A stretch of DNA of 64,000 nt from Algoriphagus yeomjeoni. GTDB lineage: Bacteria; Bacteroidota; Bacteroidia; Cytophagales; Cyclobacteriaceae. The position numbers were made by a program, and so were the translations under genes. The DNA is taken from positions 186,001-250,000 of the forward strand of contig NZ_QLLK01000001.1 in NCBI RefSeq assembly GCF_003259505.1. Direction: 5' to 3'. Shown here one piece after another: positions 7,418 to 48,890 of this stretch. Under the pieces are notes generated by a model. It was given only the letters and a program-made list of their open reading frames with translations, ran no database searches and was not told the DNA's origin. Each line of letters starts with the position of its first letter. The stretch's first letter is position 1.

Positions 7418-9856
7418 TTAGTCTAATCTATTTCGCTCTTCGGAGCTTCCAGAATTACTTTTCACGCGGAAGCTTTCTCCCTTAGAGAAGTTATATTTCA
7501 ACGTAAATCGAACACCTTGATTGCTTCGGTACTGTCGGAAATTTGTATCAATATTTGCGAAGTCAACATTGGCCTTTATTACCTGCGTCCTGAACAGATC
7601 AGTTCCATTTACAGAAAGGGTGATTTTATCCTTCATGATAGACTTGGTCACCCCTGCATCTACCCATCCAAATCCAGCAATTTCGCCCTGTCCCCAGATC
7701 TGCGGTCCAAGATACATTCCCATCACTTCCACTTTAAAACCTAGTGGTAAAACAAAGTTGTGCTGCGACCTTGCCATGAACGAAGTCTGCGAATTATCTA
7801 GGTAATCATCCCCAATCTGTGACTTAAAGCGATTGTAATTCACCTGGACCATATTCGAAGTAGACCACCATTCTTTGATATCTACAGGGATAATCGCTCT
7901 GAAGTTTGCGTTTCTAGTCTTGTCAAAGTTGTCAGTAAACGTAGTAGTAGTACGCTCCTCCTCGTTCTGTATAAACACCTGCATAAATGCATCTTCCGTT
8001 TCGCTATATCCAAGCGTGAATTGGTACATCCCTTTTACTACATGATTCATTTCAATATTATTGGAATACTGCGGTTTAAGGTTCGGGTTACCTCTTTCAC
8101 TAGTCAACGGATCAATGTAGTATACAAAAGGATTCAGTAATCGATAATTAGGTCTGGTTATTCTACGATTCACATTGTAGACGATCTGGTAGTTATCACT
8201 GATTTTATGCTGTAGGAAACCACTTGGAAATAAATTGAAATACTTCTGCTTATTCACCTGATCAAGCGTCACCGAGTTACCAGTGATATCCGAATGCTCA
8301 CCTCTTAACCCTACCTGATAAGAAAGTTTATCGGAGAATTTCCCTTTGTAGGAAAAATATGCAGCCAATACATTTTCATTGTAAATGAACCTGTTGCTGC
8401 TTGGGTCAGGAATAAATGGACCATCTTCCTGTGCTTTACTTAGGTCTAGATTGTTATCAGATTTAACCCAGCTACCTTTTACACCAGTCTCAATTGTGTT
8501 TCCTTTTCCTACTGGTTTTACAAAATCTACCTTGGCTGTGAAGATATTGTAATACATATCATTCAGCGTCAAAATGTTACTATTCATTGCATCAGACATG
8601 TTCTCACCAACCCATTGCTTATTGGTAAGTAAGGATTGGCTATCGGAATTCATTCGGGTAAAGTCCACATCGGAACTTATTTTTGTGCCCAAAGTATCAA
8701 GTTTTGCATCGTAATGCAGGTTGGCAAAATATCTACTTCCTGTTCCTGTGGCGTCATTAATCGATTCCAAATAGCTAATTTCTTGCATGCCCGGTGTGAT
8801 GATATCAGTCAATGAGTTATTGTCATTTCCATCACGGGAATCCGAAGCCTGTATATTTATGGCAATGTTTTGATTCTCATTAATCTCATAATTTGCAGCT
8901 CCAGTAAAAAAGAGGTTCTTGTTTCTAGATACAATTCTAGATTCTTGGCTGAAGTTAGAAATGCCTTCAGGTAAGGTGAAATTTCTATAGATTTCGAGAT
9001 CATTGAAATTACCATAGTGGTTGTAATTCAAGTTGGCATTTGTACTCCACTTTCCTTTTTTCACATTCAGCGCTACGCCGGTATTTGGTAACCACTGTCC
9101 GTTATACAAGGCTCCTGCTTGGATATTCCCGAACATACCATCGACAGTATTCTTTTTCAACTTGATATTGATCACGCCGGCAGAACCTTCGGCATCAAAT
9201 CTTGCTGAAGGATTATTGATCACTTCTATGCTTTTAATATTATCAGCAGGCATAGATCGAAGAAAATTCGCCAAGTCAGTGGCACTCATGTAGGTCAAGC
9301 GATCATTGATCATCACGGTAGCTCCAGTACGCCCGTTCAGATTGATGATCCCATCTTGATCTACGTAAATTCCAGGTGATCTTCCGATCACATCCAGCGC
9401 GTTTGATCCTTCAGCCATCACTGTTCCTTCCACATTGATGGTTGTTTTGTCTGGCTCAATGATGATTTCCGGACGAGTAGATTTTACTGTTACCTCATCA
9501 AGACCTGTCATTTCATCCTGTACGGTTACTGACCCAAAATTCTTCTTCAAACCAGGTTCTAGCTGAAAAACTTCGGATTCAAAAGCAGTGAACCCAATAG
9601 AGGAAATCACCAATTTGACTTTGACAGTTTTGGTAGATTCTATTAGGAAAAAGCCATTTTCATCAGATACTGCGCCATCCACCAGGTTACCGCTCGTAGC
9701 ATCGATTAATGCCACATTAGCATATGGGACAGGCTGTTCATTTTGATCAGTTACTTTACCGGTAATCTCGCTGACGTCTTTGTCCGCAGCGGCAAGGTTA
9801 CTTATCCCTAGCAGGTAAGTAAATAGTGTTAAAAAAAGCAAGTTGGTCGTTTTCAT
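7418..9856 (-). CDS. TonB-dependent-receptor-like outer-membrane beta-barrel protein with carboxypeptidase-regulatory domain
   Basis: An 812-residue outer-membrane protein with a signal peptide (about 1-24), a carboxypeptidase-regulatory-like beta-sandwich (about 28-110, EITGKVTDQNEQPVPYANVA), a plug domain (about 125-230, SIEVINNPSARFDAEGSAGV) and a long barrel. Barrel sequence such as NVNRRITRPNYRLLNPF and GNPNLKPQYSNNIEMN is typical of the outer-membrane beta-barrel (OMP_b-brl_3) branch of the TonB-receptor superfamily. No SusD partner is adjacent, so a glycan-uptake locus is unlikely; substrate unknown. Its start is preceded by an MKSS leader ORF (9862-9945) ending 5 nt before the ATG. 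It shares a terminator with the convergent lipoprotein gene. Confidence 0.88.
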   Translation of the reverse strand: MKTTNLLFLTLFTYLLGISNLAAADKDVSEITGKVTDQNEQPVPYANVALIDATSGNLVDGAVSDENGFFLIESTKTVKVKLVISSIGFTAFESEVFQLEPGLKKNFGSVTVQDEMTGLDEVTVKSTRPEIIIEPDKTTINVEGTVMAEGSNALDVIGRSPGIYVDQDGIINLNGRTGATVMINDRLTYMSATDLANFLRSMPADNIKSIEVINNPSARFDAEGSAGVINIKLKKNTVDGMFGNIQAGALYNGQWLPNTGVALNVKKGKWSTNANLNYNHYGNFNDLEIYRNFTLPEGISNFSQESRIVSRNKNLFFTGAANYEINENQNIAINIQASDSRDGNDNNSLTDIITPGMQEISYLESINDATGTGSRYFANLHYDAKLDTLGTKISSDVDFTRMNSDSQSLLTNKQWVGENMSDAMNSNILTLNDMYYNIFTAKVDFVKPVGKGNTIETGVKGSWVKSDNNLDLSKAQEDGPFIPDPSSNRFIYNENVLAAYFSYKGKFSDKLSYQVGLRGEHSDITGNSVTLDQVNKQKYFNLFPSGFLQHKISDNYQIVYNVNRRITRPNYRLLNPFVYYIDPLTSERGNPNLKPQYSNNIEMNHVVKGMYQFTLGYSETEDAFMQVFIQNEEERTTTTFTDNFDKTRNANFRAIIPVDIKEWWSTSNMVQVNYNRFKSQIGDDYLDNSQTSFMARSQHNFVLPLGFKVEVMGMYLGPQIWGQGEIAGFGWVDAGVTKSIMKDKITLSVNGTDLFRTQVIKANVDFANIDTNFRQYRSNQGVRFTLKYNFSKGESFRVKSNSGSSEERNRLD

Positions 9857-9861
9857 CTCTT

Positions 9862-9945
9862 TTATAAATTTTCAAAGGTGAGATGGAATTCCGCATTCAT
9901 CATAATCTTCACGCCGTGTGTCGATGGAGTCATGCTCGATTTCAT
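9862..9945 (-). CDS. Putative 27-residue leader ORF of the MKSS type
   Basis: A short ORF on the sense strand of the TonB-like gene, beginning with ATGAAATCGAGC and encoding MKSSMTPSTHGVKIMMNAEF plus seven more residues ending FENL. Its TAA is 5 nt before the ATG at 9856. The opening 12-mer occurs twice more in the window in the same position relative to a gene (15680-15742 and 48030-48137). The peptide shares an MKSS-x-P-x-GV pattern with the second copy and a FH stretch with the third. I infer a leader peptide or conserved 5' UTR element. No known family recognised. Confidence 0.45.
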   Translation of the reverse strand: MKSSMTPSTHGVKIMMNAEFHLTFENL

Positions 9946-13804: not shown

Positions 13805-14460
13805 GAATTTCTCCAAGCTTCCATTAATGCTTTTGCAGAGCTGCTGCCCAGCCTATCAGCACCCGCTTTAATAAGGTCCAGTGCTAAGTCTAGCGTTTTG
13901 ATTCCACCGCTTGCCTTGATACCTAGTGAAGAAGATAAATTTTCCCGCATCAATTTGATATCCTCCACTTTGGCTCCATGTGAAGCATATCCAGTGGATG
14001 TTTTCACAAAATCAGCCCCAGCATCCTGACAAATCATGCAAGCTTCCACAAGTTGCTTTTCATTCAAATTGGCTGTTTCAATGATGACCTTTAGAATTCT
14101 TTCTTCCTCATGGCAAATCTTTGCTATCTGCGCGATTTCAATTTTTGGCCAATTCATCCCCGAATGATAGGCCGTTTGGGACCAAACCAAATCCAGTTCA
14201 TCTGCACCTTGTCGGATCGCTTCCTTAGTTTCAAATACTTTGGTAGCTGTGTCGCTATATCCAAAAGGGAAGCCGATCACGGTTACTAGCTGAATATTCT
14301 CTTCCCCTAATTCCCTACGGACTTTTTTCAGCCAAAATGGAGGCACACAGACTCCTACAAATTGCTCATCAATTGCTTCTCTGACTAATAAATCCACTTC
14401 AATTCCAATCATAGTCGGCTTTAAAAGAGTGGATTCTAAAAAGCGATTCAGCTTATTCAT
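13786..14460 (-). CDS. deoC: Deoxyribose-phosphate aldolase
   Basis: A 224-residue class I aldolase that cleaves 2-deoxyribose-5-phosphate to glyceraldehyde-3-phosphate and acetaldehyde in deoxynucleoside catabolism. Catalytic features are visible: GADELDLVW (Asp), ILKVIIETANL (Lys near mid-protein) and FVKTSTGYASHGA, which carries the Schiff-base Lys. GIKASGGIKT follows as expected. The start overlaps the 3' end of the dehydrogenase gene by 8 nt, indicating translational coupling. The 3' end overlaps the convergent transporter gene by 19 nt. Confidence 0.94.
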   Translation of the reverse strand: MNKLNRFLESTLLKPTMIGIEVDLLVREAIDEQFVGVCVPPFWLKKVRRELGEENIQLVTVIGFPFGYSDTATKVFETKEAIRQGADELDLVWSQTAYHSGMNWPKIEIAQIAKICHEEERILKVIIETANLNEKQLVEACMICQDAGADFVKTSTGYASHGAKVEDIKLMRENLSSSLGIKASGGIKTLDLALDLIKAGADRLGSSSAKALMEAWRNSQSLLK

Positions 14461-15661
14461 GTTGATTTACAAATTCATTCAAATAAATAAACTCAATAGT
14501 CAAGTCACCATCCCGAGCAACTGTCGCCCGCTCCAGAATCCCGGAATTATCTTCCAATAGTGCAGGAACCACCCATTTTATCAATTGAATCCCAAATTCC
14601 TGACTTGCCTCTCGGGGTAGCTCACAGGGCAAATTGTCTATCGCCATGACCGATATACTCGTCTGACTTCCAAAGGCTGGAATTTTCTCACCCGTTTCAC
14701 GGTCTACATCGTAGACTGGATCAGTGATCGTGCTGGAAGTAAGTGTAGTCGGAATAGATCCACCCACATCGCAGCTCACATCTGCAATCACCGATAGTTG
14801 AAAATCCTCTCCTGCGATATCCTTCAATTCAAATAACCTTGGGGCGTCTGGATCCCAGTAAGCTCCAGAAATAAGTATCTCGCCCGCTTCTGCAAACTTC
14901 TGAAAATGGCTTTCATATTTCTCAGGAAAGGAATGGAATTCCTGTTTGTCATACCCTCCATCTGATTTTCTTCTATTATAGTCCGATGAGCTCAATTGTA
15001 CATAGACGGGCTCATCAAAGTACGCATGCAGAAAATCATGTACAGAAACCTCCCGTATTTTCATAGCATTCAAGATCTCCAAAGCTCCTCTTCCTACGCG
15101 ACCAGATCCGGTGAGGATAATTTTCACTGGGGGCAATTGAACCTTTGCAAGCTCAAAATGAAGCTTCTTCAGGTCTGCACATTCATTTGCCCGCTTAATC
15201 TCAAAAAGGTCTGTTTTCTTTCCATAGGTCCAGAATGCATTGTAAGCTCCTACGATTCCTGCCCATCTTCCGAAAGCTACCACACGATTTCCTTCCTCAT
15301 TTTTCAAAACCTCATAGTCAATCAGTCGGATTTTTTTGTCCAGGACAGCTTGGAGCAGTTTTCTATTGTAGGCTTGCTTTTTGATCGTATGAGAAAAGAA
15401 AAAATACGTCTTCTCCTCTAGCAACTGGTCAACGGGAACTTCCTTCACACCAAAAAGAACATCACAATCTGAAATATCATCAACTACTTCTATCCCTAAA
15501 TCAATAAATTCCTGATCTGTGAATGCCCGGAAAGGACTGGCTTGCACTTGTACGCTAATCTTACCGGCATATTCCTCCTGAATGCTTTTCAGTTGCTCCG
15601 GCGTAAATGGAACACGTTTATCAGGTGGGTTTTTTCCTTCGCGGATTATTCCGATTTTCAT
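14453..15661 (-). CDS. Saccharopine/alanine dehydrogenase-like NAD(P)-dependent oxidoreductase
   Basis: A 402-residue protein with an alanine-dehydrogenase/transhydrogenase N-terminal domain (IGIIREGKNPPDKRVPFTPE at 3-22) and a Rossmann domain with the dinucleotide motif ILTGSGRVGRGALEIL. The stretch VVAFGRWAGIVGAYNAFWTYG resembles eukaryotic-type lysine-ketoglutarate reductase/saccharopine dehydrogenase proteins. An L-lysine-linked amino-acid oxidoreductase is therefore the best guess, with alanine dehydrogenase less likely. It is coupled to deoC by an 8-nt overlap, an unusual pairing metabolically. An MKSS-type leader ORF (15680-15742) precedes the start by 18 nt. Confidence 0.75.
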   Translation of the reverse strand: MKIGIIREGKNPPDKRVPFTPEQLKSIQEEYAGKISVQVQASPFRAFTDQEFIDLGIEVVDDISDCDVLFGVKEVPVDQLLEEKTYFFFSHTIKKQAYNRKLLQAVLDKKIRLIDYEVLKNEEGNRVVAFGRWAGIVGAYNAFWTYGKKTDLFEIKRANECADLKKLHFELAKVQLPPVKIILTGSGRVGRGALEILNAMKIREVSVHDFLHAYFDEPVYVQLSSSDYNRRKSDGGYDKQEFHSFPEKYESHFQKFAEAGEILISGAYWDPDAPRLFELKDIAGEDFQLSVIADVSCDVGGSIPTTLTSSTITDPVYDVDRETGEKIPAFGSQTSISVMAIDNLPCELPREASQEFGIQLIKWVVPALLEDNSGILERATVARDGDLTIEFIYLNEFVNQHE

Positions 15662-15679
15662 ATTTTTATAATTTGATCT

Positions 15680-15742
15680 TTAATGGCCATCCCTCTGTAA
15701 GCTGCTAAGCGTCACGCCTGGATCGGGCAGGCTCGATTTCAT
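15680..15742 (-). CDS. Putative 20-residue leader ORF of the MKSS type
   Basis: The sense-strand ORF upstream of the dehydrogenase gene opens with ATGAAATCGAGC and encodes MKSSLPDPGVTLSSLQRDGH. Its TAA lies 18 nt before the ATG at 15661. It aligns with the leader at 9862-9945 as MKSS-x-x-P-x-GV, and the DNA shares GGCGTGA at the matching place. It shares a GGCCA-x-T-x-A block near its end with the third copy at 48030-48137. The role is inferred only from position and recurrence. Confidence 0.45.
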   Translation of the reverse strand: MKSSLPDPGVTLSSLQRDGH

Positions 15743-26248: not shown

Positions 26249-26261
26249 CTTCTAGATCATA

Positions 26262-26333
26262 GGGGGTGCCTTAACAAAACGGGCTGAGATCATACCCATA
26301 CGACCTGATCCGGGTAATGCCGGCGAAGGGAAA
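26262..26333 (+). ncRNA. TPP (THI-element) riboswitch
   Basis: The conserved thi-box segments are present in order: GGGGTGCC (26263-26270), GGGCTGAGAT then ATACCC (26281-26297), ACCTGATCCGGGTAATGCC and GCGAAGGGAA. These form the pyrimidine- and pyrophosphate-sensing helices of the TPP aptamer. It lies between a consensus promoter and a TonB-dependent receptor gene. Downstream, GTAGCAA (26343-26349) can pair with TTGCTAC (26403-26409), and AAAATC (26355-26360) with GATTTT (26393-26398). This pairing is a candidate expression platform. High TPP is expected to reduce receptor synthesis. Confidence 0.95.
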
Positions 26334-26484
26334 TGAACAAGCGTAGCAACAAATAAAATCAAACCGATGAAGCGGTACCCTTCTGGATTTTCGATTTTGT
26401 CATTGCTACAGGGTAAACAAATACGGTAAGCTTCCCTAGAGCTTTCTCATGTTTCACTCAATCTTCCGAAAGGGAACATTACAC

Positions 26485-44490: not shown

Positions 44491-46953
44491 CTAGTCCAGG
44501 TAATATACCCGCTTCACACGGGTGCTGATATTTGTCAGCAATTCATAGGGGATGGTTCCAATCTGATCTGCAAGTTCTTTCAAGGAGATCTTCTCTCCAT
44601 AGATAATCGCCTCATCTCCGGCCTTCACATCCATGCCTGAGACATCCACCATGCACATATCCATACACACATTTCCTATGATTGGAGCCTTGTGTCCATT
44701 GATCAGCACATAGCCCTTTCCATTGCTAAATCGTCTATCGTACCCATCCGCATAGCCAATTGCCAGCGTAGCAATTTTTCCCCCAGACGACAATACTCCC
44801 TTTCTTGAATATCCGATCGTCTCACCTGGATTTAGCTCTTTTATCTGGGAAATGGTGGTTTTCAAGGTACTAATAGCTCGAAGTGCCATCTCATGCTTAC
44901 CCGTCACTTCCACACCATATAAGCCAATTCCTAATCTCACCATATCAAATTGAAACTCTGGAAAGGCAACTATCCCGGCAGAATTGAGCGCGTGAATAAG
45001 TGGTTTGTAAGAAAGCACCTGAAGGATTTGATTTTTAATTTCTTCAAATGATTTCAATTGGGAGATCGAAAACTCCTGATGAACTTCCTCATCTGCACCG
45101 ACCAAGTGAGTATAGATTGAAGCTATCTCCAATTGAGGATTTGCTTGGATTAAGTTCTTCAGCTCTGACAAATGCTTTTCCTCAAAACCCAACCGGTGCA
45201 TGCCGGTATCCATATCGAGATGGATTTTCATCTTTTGCTGATGAATAGTACACCAAGCAGCCAGACTCTCGAAAAACTCAGAACTGAATACTACCGGCTC
45301 CAAATCAAATTTGCTACATAGCCCGAAGGATTCCTGCATGGCATTCAACACCATTATTGGAAGCTTGATCCCTTGCTTTCGAAGGGCCACCCCTTCATCA
45401 GAAAATGCAACTCCCAAGTAATCGGCTCCCATGGTCTGGATCTGATTGGCTATCTCCAAAGCACCTCCTCCATAGGCAAAAGCCTTTACCATCACCATCA
45501 CTTTGGTTTTTGGGAAAAGTAGCTTTTTGTAGAAATTATAATTGTGGGTAAGGGCATTAAGGTTGATCTCAAGCGTCGTCCCATGAATTCTCTGCTGAAG
45601 TCGATTAACCACTTCTTCAAAGCCAAATACTCGGGCTCCGGTGATCAAAATCATATCATTTGCGAAGCTCTCTGGATCGAGATTAGTCAATAACTCCTCT
45701 GTAGAACTAAAGGCTCTGAACGACTCCGGGAATTCTTTTTCCAAAACAATAATCTCCTTGCCCACTCCAAAAAGCAGATCAAATTGATACTTCTTGATCA
45801 GCTCTGTTACTTCTTCGTAAATTTTCTCAGGCGAACCTTGCTGTAGCAAATCTGATAAAATCAAGATTTTACGCCGCTTTGGGCGCTGCTGCTGCATAAA
45901 ATCCAATGCAACCTTCAGCCCGGCCAAATCATTATTATAAGTATCATCAATCAGCAAAGAATCATTGATTCCAGGCTTCAGGGTTAGCCGCATATCTACC
46001 GACTTCAGATGAGCAATACCCTCTTGGATAGATTCTGCACCTTGTCCCAAAGTCATCGCAGCTACGATCACATGGGTTATGTTTTCCAAGGAAGCCACAT
46101 CGGTAAATGGCACTTGAAAGGTGTGCGTACTCAGATCCGATTTCATCAATAGTAGCCTGGCACCGTTCGCTTTCAATTTCACCGATCTAGTAAATTCATA
46201 GCCTGCTCTGACTGACCAACCAATACGCTTTTCCGCTGGAAACAATACCTCTATTTGACTCGAAACCTGTTCATGATCAGCGCAGTAAATTACAAGATCT
46301 GAGTTTTCAAAAAGTGAAAGCTTCTCCTGAAGCTTGGAATCTAAGCTGTCAAAACCCTCTTGATGTGCAGTTCCAAGATTGGTAAAAATGCCCAAGTTAG
46401 GCTTGATCATTTCTTCTAAAGCAGCCATTTCTCCAGCCCTAGAGATTCCAGCTTCTAAAATCGCCACTTGATGATAAGACTCCATTCCGAAGATAGAAAG
46501 CGGAACACCAACTTGTGAATTGTAACTTTTTGGGCTTTTGGCTACAGCATACTTTTGTCCTAAAATCTGCCCTAACCATTCTTTTACGATGGTTTTACCA
46601 TTGCTGCCAGTGATGCTGACCACTGGATTTGTAAACATAGACCGCTCGTATTTGGCCAATAACTGCAAAGCTCTTCTGGTGTCTGAAACTTTGATAAAGC
46701 AAGCCTGAGGAAAAGCTCTTTCCTCAAAATCTTGATGAACCAAAAATGTCTTTACACCTGCCTCTGCTAGTTGTGCTATAAAATCAGCCCCATCAGCTTT
46801 TGCTCCTCGAAGAGCTACAAAGACTGTTTTTTGAGGGTGAAGTATTTGTCTGGAATCTATAGCAATTTGAGAAATCAGAACTTCATCGTTTCCGCTGAAG
46901 AGATTTCCTGTTGTGATTCTTGCTATTTGTCGTTGATTAACTTCCTGAAACAT
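44491..46953 (-). CDS. Bifunctional MurF ligase / alanine racemase
   Basis: An 820-residue fusion typical of Bacteroidota. The N-half (about 1-450) is UDP-MurNAc-tripeptide:D-Ala-D-Ala ligase with the ATP loop SITGSNGKTIVKEWL and GTAHQEGFDS. The C-half (about 455-820) is PLP alanine racemase with the Schiff-base Lys in VMVKAFAYGGGA and the second-base Tyr region TIGYSRKGVLS. It supplies D-Ala and adds D-Ala-D-Ala to the peptidoglycan precursor. Its start overlaps the 3' end of the UPF0104 gene by 17 nt, so the two are coupled. Confidence 0.95.
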   Translation of the reverse strand: MFQEVNQRQIARITTGNLFSGNDEVLISQIAIDSRQILHPQKTVFVALRGAKADGADFIAQLAEAGVKTFLVHQDFEERAFPQACFIKVSDTRRALQLLAKYERSMFTNPVVSITGSNGKTIVKEWLGQILGQKYAVAKSPKSYNSQVGVPLSIFGMESYHQVAILEAGISRAGEMAALEEMIKPNLGIFTNLGTAHQEGFDSLDSKLQEKLSLFENSDLVIYCADHEQVSSQIEVLFPAEKRIGWSVRAGYEFTRSVKLKANGARLLLMKSDLSTHTFQVPFTDVASLENITHVIVAAMTLGQGAESIQEGIAHLKSVDMRLTLKPGINDSLLIDDTYNNDLAGLKVALDFMQQQRPKRRKILILSDLLQQGSPEKIYEEVTELIKKYQFDLLFGVGKEIIVLEKEFPESFRAFSSTEELLTNLDPESFANDMILITGARVFGFEEVVNRLQQRIHGTTLEINLNALTHNYNFYKKLLFPKTKVMVMVKAFAYGGGALEIANQIQTMGADYLGVAFSDEGVALRKQGIKLPIMVLNAMQESFGLCSKFDLEPVVFSSEFFESLAAWCTIHQQKMKIHLDMDTGMHRLGFEEKHLSELKNLIQANPQLEIASIYTHLVGADEEVHQEFSISQLKSFEEIKNQILQVLSYKPLIHALNSAGIVAFPEFQFDMVRLGIGLYGVEVTGKHEMALRAISTLKTTISQIKELNPGETIGYSRKGVLSSGGKIATLAIGYADGYDRRFSNGKGYVLINGHKAPIIGNVCMDMCMVDVSGMDVKAGDEAIIYGEKISLKELADQIGTIPYELLTNISTRVKRVYYLD

Positions 46954-48025
46954 CTTGCTCCGGATTTACTTTCTTTCTCTTTTTATTGAAAAAAACCTGC
47001 TTAACCCAGCGAGGAAGGAAAAATGCTCCCAAAATCAAATATGGATAATAGGATAAAAGCCTCCACAAAATGCTAGTGACAAATGTATAGCTGGCCAAAA
47101 ACTCGGTAAAGAATTGGCCAAAAAAGAACTCTGCCGTCCCACTACTTCCGGGAGTCGGAGAAATCATCATCACGATCCACATGATCACTTGTCTGGCAAA
47201 AACAATAACATGTTCAAAGGCAGCCAACGGAACAAAGGCAGAAATCAAGGCATTAAGCATCAGATACCTTGAGCTCCAAATGAGTATAGTGGCTACAACA
47301 ATTGGCACCCAGTAATTCCACTTTTTTCCAGAAAGCTCTCTTGATGCGACGATGATTTGGTCACCATATTCTTGAGCATCATGCTTCCATTTGCGGAGCC
47401 ATTTGATCGAAAATATTTTGATTAATACCCATTTGAAAACTCTTGGTCGATAAAATAAAGCTGCAGCCATGATGATACTGTATGCAGCGTAAAGGGAATA
47501 GGAAATCCAGAAAATGGCTTCCAAACTGTTTTCAAGTTGCATTTCCAGCACTTTACTCGTTGGGAAAATATTTCCCTTTGCAAAAAACAGAATGATTGGA
47601 GCTCCAATTACAAAGAAGAGATTATCCAAAATCGCAGTCACCATCACATATGCAATAGCTCTTCCCAGTTTGATGCCTTCTTTGTTCAAAATGAAAATAG
47701 CAACCGCTGTACCTCCAACTACCGAAGGCGTCACCGCTGAGGCAAATTCCCAAAGAATGATTACATAAATCGACCGCTTCCAAGTCAGATGCCTATCGGT
47801 GATCTCGCGAATTCTATAAACATACCCAGCATCACGAAACAAAATGACCAAAACTGCAACAAGAATCCAAGGTATGGATGCATCAAAAATTCCACTTAAA
47901 GAGTCTTTGTTTACCGAGGGATCAAAGTAAAACATTGCAAAAACAATGGCTAAACCAATGATAACCGGAACCCAAATTTTATTCGGATTAAGTGTTTGGA
48001 AGATTTTTTTGTTATCCAGTTTCAT
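46937..48025 (-). CDS. UPF0104/lysylphosphatidylglycerol-synthase-TM-type membrane protein
   Basis: A 362-residue protein with about eight membrane segments. The signature ISPTPGSSGTAEFFFGQFF near residue 300 is typical of the flippase-like/AglD domain, found alone here without a synthase domain. It is suspected to flip lipid-linked substrates. Translational overlap with murF-alr suggests a link with envelope synthesis. An MKSS-type leader ORF (48030-48137) ends 4 nt before the ATG. The tail is Lys-rich (FNKKRKKVNPEQD). Confidence 0.85.
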   Translation of the reverse strand: MKLDNKKIFQTLNPNKIWVPVIIGLAIVFAMFYFDPSVNKDSLSGIFDASIPWILVAVLVILFRDAGYVYRIREITDRHLTWKRSIYVIILWEFASAVTPSVVGGTAVAIFILNKEGIKLGRAIAYVMVTAILDNLFFVIGAPIILFFAKGNIFPTSKVLEMQLENSLEAIFWISYSLYAAYSIIMAAALFYRPRVFKWVLIKIFSIKWLRKWKHDAQEYGDQIIVASRELSGKKWNYWVPIVVATILIWSSRYLMLNALISAFVPLAAFEHVIVFARQVIMWIVMMISPTPGSSGTAEFFFGQFFTEFLASYTFVTSILWRLLSYYPYLILGAFFLPRWVKQVFFNKKRKKVNPEQDVSGS

Positions 48026-48029
48026 GTGA

Positions 48030-48137
48030 TTACAAGTGTTTTTCAGTGGCCACCTCGTAAAGTAGGGACATGCTATGGAATCTCGAAGCGAGAAGAAATA
48101 TACGGGCGTTTACCTGCTGCGATATGCTCGATTTCAT
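48030..48137 (-). CDS. Putative 35-residue leader ORF of the MKSS type
   Basis: A sense-strand ORF before the UPF0104 gene, opening with ATGAAATCGAGC and encoding MKSSISQQVNARIFLLASRF followed by HSMSLLYEVATEKHL. Its TAA is 4 nt before the ATG at 48025, giving scope for translational coupling. It shares the opening 12-mer with 9862-9945 and 15680-15742, and ATTCCAT near its middle with the first. The segment also contains a small TCTCG/CGAGA hairpin (48081-48093). Confidence 0.45.
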   Translation of the reverse strand: MKSSISQQVNARIFLLASRFHSMSLLYEVATEKHL

Positions 48138-48140
48138 AGG

Positions 48141-48890
48141 CTAGGCTACAGCTATTGGCTCAGTCTTTTCCACCCAAAAGTTATTGAAACCATCTCCTAT
48201 GATGATGGTAACGAGGGAAAGTTGAAGTAATTCTAGAATTGCAAGGAAGGTATAAATCACAAAAATCTTCTCGGGTTTGTAGCTGATGAATTCATCAAAG
48301 GGCACTTTTTTCTTAAAACTGATTTTCTCTAGGACAAAATCCTTTTGCTGGGCAATAGTATATGGATACTGAATCACGGTGTGCTTTGTTTCATCCACAC
48401 GAGCTGCCATTTTAGCCATAGTCCGCTGAAACACCTTGAGCATTTTATACAAATCCATGTCCTGCATTTCTGCATCCACGTCATCTACTTTACTGAGTGT
48501 CTTTAGTTCAGCGGCAATATTCCCTCGCTTTTGCTTTGACATTTCCTCTCCCTCCATAGAAGAAAGCTCCTCAATCACAGATTTATACTTTTTGTACTCC
48601 AACAGATTCCTAATCAATTCCTCACGAGGATCTACTTCCTCTCCTTGCTCGTTGAGCTCAGGTCTAGGCAAAAGCATTCTAGACTTAATCTTCATCAACG
48701 TAGCCGCAAAGAGGATAAAATCACTGGCAACTTCCATTTCCATTTGCTCCATCTGATGAACATAATCCAAGAAGTCATTGGTAATCTTGGATATAGGAAT
48801 ATCATAAATGTCCAGCTCATCCCGCTCGATAAAGAAGAGCATGAGGTCGAAGGGACCTTCGAAGAGTGGTAATTTGATTTCGAAACTCAA
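48141..48890 (-). CDS. scpA: Segregation and condensation protein A
   Basis: A 249-residue kleisin that bridges SMC heads with ScpB in chromosome condensation. The N-terminus IKLPLFEGPFDLMLFFIERDELDIYDIPI is diagnostic (quoted in outline: LPLFEGPFDLMLFFIERDEL). The C-terminal winged-helix part is KVPFDEFISYKPEKIFVIYT. No ATG precedes this block, so a TTG at 48890 is taken as start. A TATCTTTG box lies about 40 nt upstream. The stop is 4 nt before an MKSS leader ORF, so scpA may be co-transcribed with the UPF0104 gene. Confidence 0.92.
   Translation of the reverse strand: MSFEIKLPLFEGPFDLMLFFIERDELDIYDIPISKITNDFLDYVHQMEQMEMEVASDFILFAATLMKIKSRMLLPRPELNEQGEEVDPREELIRNLLEYKKYKSVIEELSSMEGEEMSKQKRGNIAAELKTLSKVDDVDAEMQDMDLYKMLKVFQRTMAKMAARVDETKHTVIQYPYTIAQQKDFVLEKISFKKKVPFDEFISYKPEKIFVIYTFLAILELLQLSLVTIIIGDGFNNFWVEKTEPIAVA

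Follow-up and report, generated by a model that had tools for sequence, protein, structure and literature searches.

Why should the same 12 nucleotides open a short reading frame directly in front of three different genes? In the window, by which we mean the whole 64-kb stretch of DNA analysed here (C1:186001-250000), the 12-mer ATGAAATCGAGC is present in three copies, all on the minus strand, with starts at 9945, 15742 and 48137. The ORFs opened by these copies are 27, 20 and 35 codons long, run on the sense strand of the next gene and stop 5, 18 and 4 nt upstream of its ATG. An earlier note had described this arrangement and judged the recurrence to exceed chance; exact searches confirmed the three starts and the placement of all three ORFs. 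Shuffled versions of the window held a mean of 0.01 copies of ATGAAATCGAGC, with three copies in 0 of 100 shuffles, and no other ATG-initial 12-mer is present three times in the window. In the whole source genome (4.97 Mb, 30 contigs) there are 57 exact copies, against 0 for a reversed control pattern. Chance recurrence, as the note had argued, is therefore ruled out by the window shuffles and the genome-wide control.

The note had offered a conserved leader peptide, a coupled upstream ORF and a dispersed element with its own start codon as possible explanations. We consider it very probable that ATGAAATCGAGC belongs to a small (~92 nt), non-autonomous mobile DNA element, which inserts at ATGAA(A) and persists chiefly at sites where this sequence serves as a start codon.

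Extent and distribution of the element

Similarity among the flanks of all 57 copies extends for ~90 nt, from ATGAAATCGAGC through to a gene's ATGAAA, and the ATGAAA at the element end is the start of the next ORF in nearly every case. Searching the whole genome and congeners upstream of genes, as the earlier note had proposed, did not place the 12-mer mostly outside 5' UTRs. The consensus, ATGAAATCGAGCATGACnAAAACGTCACACAnnGGGATGATTATnAnnCATGCGAGATTCCATnTGACCATTAAAAAnCAAATTATAAACAC followed by the gene's ATGAAA, defines an element of roughly 92 nt of which ATGAAATCGAGC is the 5' arm, and this arm is the most constant part in one subfamily only. A covariance model search of the genome returned ~90 credible copies, and in the copies read the downstream genes are unrelated to one another.

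Copy 1 in the window (89 nt; 9857..9945, minus strand; covariance model match of 79 bits) is inserted at the ATGAAA start of a TonB-dependent-receptor-like gene (7418..9856), the target being the start codon and second codon of that gene (9851..9856, minus strand). Its 5' arm (9934..9945, minus strand) provides the start codon of the leader as well as the 5' strand of helix P1, an arm pairing that is backed by compensatory change in other subfamilies. The leader ORF occupies 9862..9945 (minus strand). It has an internal guide, GCGGAATTCCATCTC (9880..9894, minus strand; column pair 70/94), in which CATCTC exactly complements the GAGATG of the gene start; most copies have CATnTG/CAnATG, and both sides have changed in this one. 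Copy 2 (81 nt; 15662..15742, minus strand) has a degenerate guide and lies at the ATGAAA (15656..15661, minus strand) that starts gene 14453..15661. Copy 3 (112 nt; 48026..48137, minus strand) contains an extra hairpin-like insert, and lies at the ATGAAA (48020..48025, minus strand) that starts gene 46937..48025, within the 115-nt gap between this gene and gene 48141..48890.

Among the Rfam 15 family models, only a TPP riboswitch was found in the window, and six element loci gave no relevant match. About 100 nt separate the riboswitch (26252..26348, plus strand; 64.7 bits) from a downstream gene for a TonB-dependent receptor at 26449, which suggests that this receptor is thiamin-related. The open-licence literature yielded no account of such an element in the Cyclobacteriaceae, nor of insertion at start codons, and the family is apparently undescribed so far. 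A virus-borne origin was considered and set aside, the five IMG/VR matches to an extended 12-mer not being the element.

The genome also contains tandem arrays, one of five units and four of two, arranged head-to-tail. Neighbouring units share ATGAAA, since the end of the element is itself a target. Among dispersed copies in the source genome the highest identity is 97.9%, and no insertion in progress was observed. All 133 copies with a conserved right part are short and have no gene inside, and a long, gene-carrying autonomous copy was sought among them without success. Small palindromic inserts (CCCGATAGCTATCGGG, GCCTGTCCCGACTTCTCGGGA and CTGCCTGAGGCAGACAGGCA) are seen at fixed positions in otherwise unrelated copies, L012, L024, L026, L029, L031, L047 and L048 among them, and split the guide in part of these copies; either a separate repeat family or an exchange of hairpins inside the element family could explain them. 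In L280, L312 and L386, the usual loop gives way to an inner hairpin that is long, AT-rich and nearly perfect, ACGATTAAAAT...ATTTTAATCGT.

Of 35 further congeners searched, 30 have at least one match, with 1 to more than 70 copies each, the counts for rich genomes being at least the number given; fuller searches found 106 copies above the reporting threshold in G020 and 135 in G014. Within the family, a 17-mer was matched in Algoriphagus, Lunatibacter, Lunatimonas, Cyclobacterium, Aquiflexum, Pleomorphovibrio and Pararhodonellum contigs, and scattered matches in unrelated phyla are to be expected by chance for a 17-mer in 257 Gb. Outside the Cyclobacteriaceae, single copies occur in G037 and G193, and the element is otherwise nearly absent. 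When 23 copies from G014 were compared, the dispersed ones were at most 88% identical, and these copies look old.

Filled sites, empty sites and the target

Comparison with 40 congeners covered 7.6 kb of the window. The receptor-gene site of copy 1 is empty in G027, G061, G058, G020, G018 and G009, where the upstream sequence is followed by a single ATGAAA and the gene, with no scar. The copy 2 site is filled in the source genome, G027, G061 and G059, and empty in G058, G020, G018 and others; the G059 copy is unlike the rest and probably represents a separate insertion at the same codon. The copy 3 site is filled in the source genome and G018, and empty in G027, G020, G009, G017 and others. 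At sucC, empty alleles read ATGAATATT and the filled allele reads ATGAAATCG...ATGAATATT. Exact empty alleles are thus found in relatives for all three window sites and for sucC. This polymorphism, which is between species rather than strains, argues that the element is mobile. The dispersed element with its own start codon is the suggestion of the earlier note that fared best, given ~90 copies, exact empty alleles, tandem arrays and one site that was probably hit repeatedly.

Comparison of the filled and empty sucC alleles indicates that the sixth base at the 5' end belongs to the element, and that the shared part is ATGAA. Insertion occurs 3' of a short fixed target that is kept in the flank (TTTCAT; ATGAA on the gene strand), with no loss of sequence. 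The ATGAA at the junction fits a 5-nt target duplication and an element-borne end equally well, the two being indistinguishable by sequence because the target hardly varies.

On the gene side of 81 solo copies, the six successive positions are A in 80, T in 81, G in 80, A in 81, A in 81 and A in 76, with only an A-rich background farther out; the upstream side is A/T-rich with no further motif. An ORF of at least 60 codons is opened in 73 of the 81 cases; for all ATGAAA in 400 kb of a congener, the proportion is 26%. Of the 102 ATGAAA sequences in the window, 80 are inside genes, and no convincing copy inside a gene was seen in the source genome. In G009, one copy is antisense to a Y1 ORF, close to the 3' end of that ORF and at TTTCAT, which argues that the target is a DNA sequence and not start-codon function. 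The simplest reading is that the target is the DNA sequence ATGAA(A), and that selection removes insertions inside genes. There may also be a mild extra preference for gene starts over other intergenic ATGAAA (73:8 versus 13:6, p = 0.02), on few sites. We conclude with high confidence that this is a mobile element with the target ATGAA.

Internal pairing and the leader ORF

The 5' arm pairs with an interior sequence, GCGAGATTCCAT, the guide (TTCCATnTG), and the CAT of the same guide also pairs with the gene's ATG. Covariation was assessed in 168 distinct copies from the source genome and its relatives. The guide base in CAT[n]TG complements the base at -1 of the gene ATG in 149 of the 168, against a shuffle mean of 56.5 and a maximum of 75, while the ATG and AA of the target are constant in this pairing, the target ATGAA being nearly invariant. 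Positions 8, 9 and 11 of P1 covary above shuffles, the A1 covariation score is 0.153 versus 0.072 when shuffled, and the inner hairpin TGAC/GTCA has undergone compensatory changes as well. Entire arms have been exchanged together: ATGAAATGCCC goes with GGGCATTCCAT, and a further family has ATGAAACCCGCATGA along with TCATGCGGGTTCCAT. We found no copy in which an altered guide was accompanied by a correspondingly altered target. From covariation, we suggest with moderate confidence that the guide pairing may form part of target recognition.

We regard it as hardly credible that the leader is a conserved MKSS... peptide with a function of its own. The first four residues are shared, and the frame is more open than controls: the ATG frame stays open up to the last 15 nt of the element in 39 of 71 copies, compared with 10 of 71 in either shifted frame. 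For copies of length 57, the commonest spacing, 73 of 76 are open versus 66.2 after column shuffling, with control frames unaffected; this protection is suggestive only, because the shuffles ignore the relatedness of copies. Past MKSS, however, the residues differ between copies, subfamily peptides start with MKCP or MKPA, element lengths are spread over all three phases (30/22/19), and the leader halts before the guide in 18% of gene-associated copies. The conserved peptide of the earlier note was therefore not borne out, the subfamily arms being unrelated and the lengths falling in all three phases; the frame-breaking indels between copies that it had named as counting against a leader were found.

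The coupled upstream ORF that the earlier note had also proposed survives in part. Its frame is less interrupted than controls, and it stops near or over the gene's ATG: 65 of 173 leaders overlap that ATG (ATGA) and 41 end in a TAA four nt upstream, together 106 of 173. A partly stop-protected frame that ends at or near the gene start makes coupled translation plausible. What did not stand is an ancestral control design. The phase of the leader does not depend on that of the tail, which speaks against fine tuning, and no selection on total leader-plus-tail phase was detected. We suggest that coupled translation is plausibly an after-effect of insertion rather than an ancestral regulatory design. 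The start-context score is 5.62 for element 3' ends and 0.24 for native genes, and we infer from such sequence features that insertion could preserve gene expression through a new start context plus coupling. In two copies, L016 (C3:95858) and L046 (C13:15979), no stop separates the leader from the downstream gene, which is in the same frame, so that the gene would be annotated with an N-terminal extension of ~30 residues made by the element.

A host regulatory leader, either a coupled upstream ORF or an RNA switch that sequesters the start codon, could instead have been recruited upstream of many genes. Such a leader would account for a guide CAU able to pair with the leader AUG or the gene AUG, for the avoidance of in-frame stops and the clustering of leader ends at the ATGA overlap or four nt upstream, and for a sucC copy kept in several species. 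It fits poorly with unrelated downstream genes, with sites that are polymorphic between close relatives, with near absence outside the family and with subfamily arms that are completely different. Single-strand folding energy is not unusual either (z of -0.90 as RNA and -0.74 as DNA). We consider recruitment of this kind quite improbable, and our confidence in any regulatory role for the element is low.

The mobilising enzyme and known systems

The enzyme families profiled were Y1 and TnpB, and no mobilising gene was identified among the profiles of either. One possibility, which we think somewhat unlikely, is that a Y1 (HUH) transposase acts on the bottom strand and that the element is of the IS200/IS605 or REP type. 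The layout on that strand would then be target TTTCAT, left end, linker, guide CAnATGGAATC, hairpin and right end TTTCAT, and this order of target, linker, guide, hairpin and right end is that of IS608 (PMC5934647). In 165 of 168 copies the top strand retains an A·C mismatch, which corresponds to a T·G wobble when the bottom strand is considered, and Y1 genes are present in 37 of 40 congeners. Their presence does not track that of the element, however. G014, with its 135 copies, and G059 have the element and no Y1 match above the cut-off, whereas in G021 and G025 strong Y1 genes go with 0-1 element copies. A copy lies within 1 kb at 1 of 39 Y1 loci, where it is itself an insertion, and repeats of other kinds surround the Y1 genes examined. 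A Y1 transposase as a linked or co-distributed mobiliser is thus not supported. The replication-strand split in G020 (52:40 for elements versus 146:125 for ORFs) is without bias, in a comparison that gene-start selection confounds, and lends no support to lagging-strand targeting. TnpB occurs in only 2 of the 40 genomes, and a TnpB mobiliser was rejected since tnpB is missing from most host genomes.

At one Y1 locus, L210 (1089..2220), the encoded Y1 protein (184 aa) has the YIHQNP motif of RAYT subclass 2.6, and the palindromes on either side of it, GTCTTCAGAC, belong to a repeat family different from the element. Subclass 2.6 RAYTs of the Bacteroidetes have been described as having 'atypical' flanking structures (PMC6006769).

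The chances seem evenly balanced that the mobiliser is instead an enzyme of another or an unknown class, which may be rare or have been lost, and that the paired guide works at the DNA or the RNA level. The lack of correlation with Y1 or TnpB and the short, gene-free nature of every copy checked are in keeping with this, and the top (sense) strand has tandem G·A mismatches, conserved in 135-140 of 168 copies, that favour its being the strand that folds. Against it, the two enzyme families profiled provided no positive candidate. The age of the G014 copies means that loss of a mobiliser from that genome is possible, and our confidence in the identity of the enzyme is low.

Returning to the mobile element that we prefer, we suggest that a transposase-like enzyme acting in trans would recognise the hairpin formed by the 5' arm and the guide, and that pairing of the guide (TTCCATnTG) with the junction or target (CAn|ATGAA) would position the cut. 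After insertion, the host gene would keep its own ATG behind the element's A-rich 3' end, and the old gene-start context would drive the leader ORF from the element's ATGAAA, usually ending a few nt from the gene ATG. Expression would probably be kept by re-initiation or coupling, making the insertion nearly harmless. A stronger version, in which guide pairing with CAn|ATGAA sets the target of a start-codon-directed element, the enzyme class is new to such elements, and the element carries an initiation region and a coupled leader that keep genes expressed, we advance as a speculation that is more likely wrong than right.

If true, the element has made its way into a gene-dense genome by landing on the six bases with which host genes most often begin and by bringing its own start region along, and it has rewritten the 5' ends of ~100 unrelated genes per genome, sucC included. 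Natural alleles with and without the element would then be available for gauging the effect on expression of an added leader ORF and start-codon hairpin. For annotation, many gene starts in the family would lie behind an unrecognised insertion, and some in-frame leaders would have been misread as N-terminal extensions.

In IS608, the guide is just 5' of the hairpin, and base pairing serves to recognise the target, which remains in the left flank (PMC5934647). The element resembles IS200/IS605 members such as IS608 and ISDra2 in its site-specific insertion beside a short conserved sequence, in having no inverted terminal repeats, and in its hairpin and internal guide complementary to the target or junction (PMC5934647). 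It differs in having one hairpin and one guide for both ends, in lacking tnpA or tnpB inside or linked, in its target ATGAA(A)/TTTCAT, and in a host distribution that Y1 and TnpB do not match. The likeness to IS608 therefore speaks of a possible mechanism, not of membership.

REP/REPIN sequences (RAYT, TnpA-REP) are short, palindromic and extragenic, number tens to hundreds of copies, and show tandems and compensatory stem changes (PMC3733652, PMC8266576). The element shares the many extragenic copies, the tandem groups and the subfamilies with compensatory stem changes. However, its consensus has no GTAG or CGTC tag, it is ~92 nt long rather than 20-40, it sits at gene starts in the orientation of the gene, and it does not flank the RAYT/Y1 genes examined. 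Like MITEs, it is small, non-autonomous, dispersed and probably moved in trans; unlike them, it is without classical terminal inverted repeats, has a fixed target ATGAA(A) and no variable target-site duplication, and no related full-length element was found. With translationally coupled leader ORFs, it shares a short ORF that ends at or overlaps the next start codon, whereas the leader of the element is installed by insertion before unrelated genes and its peptide is not conserved.
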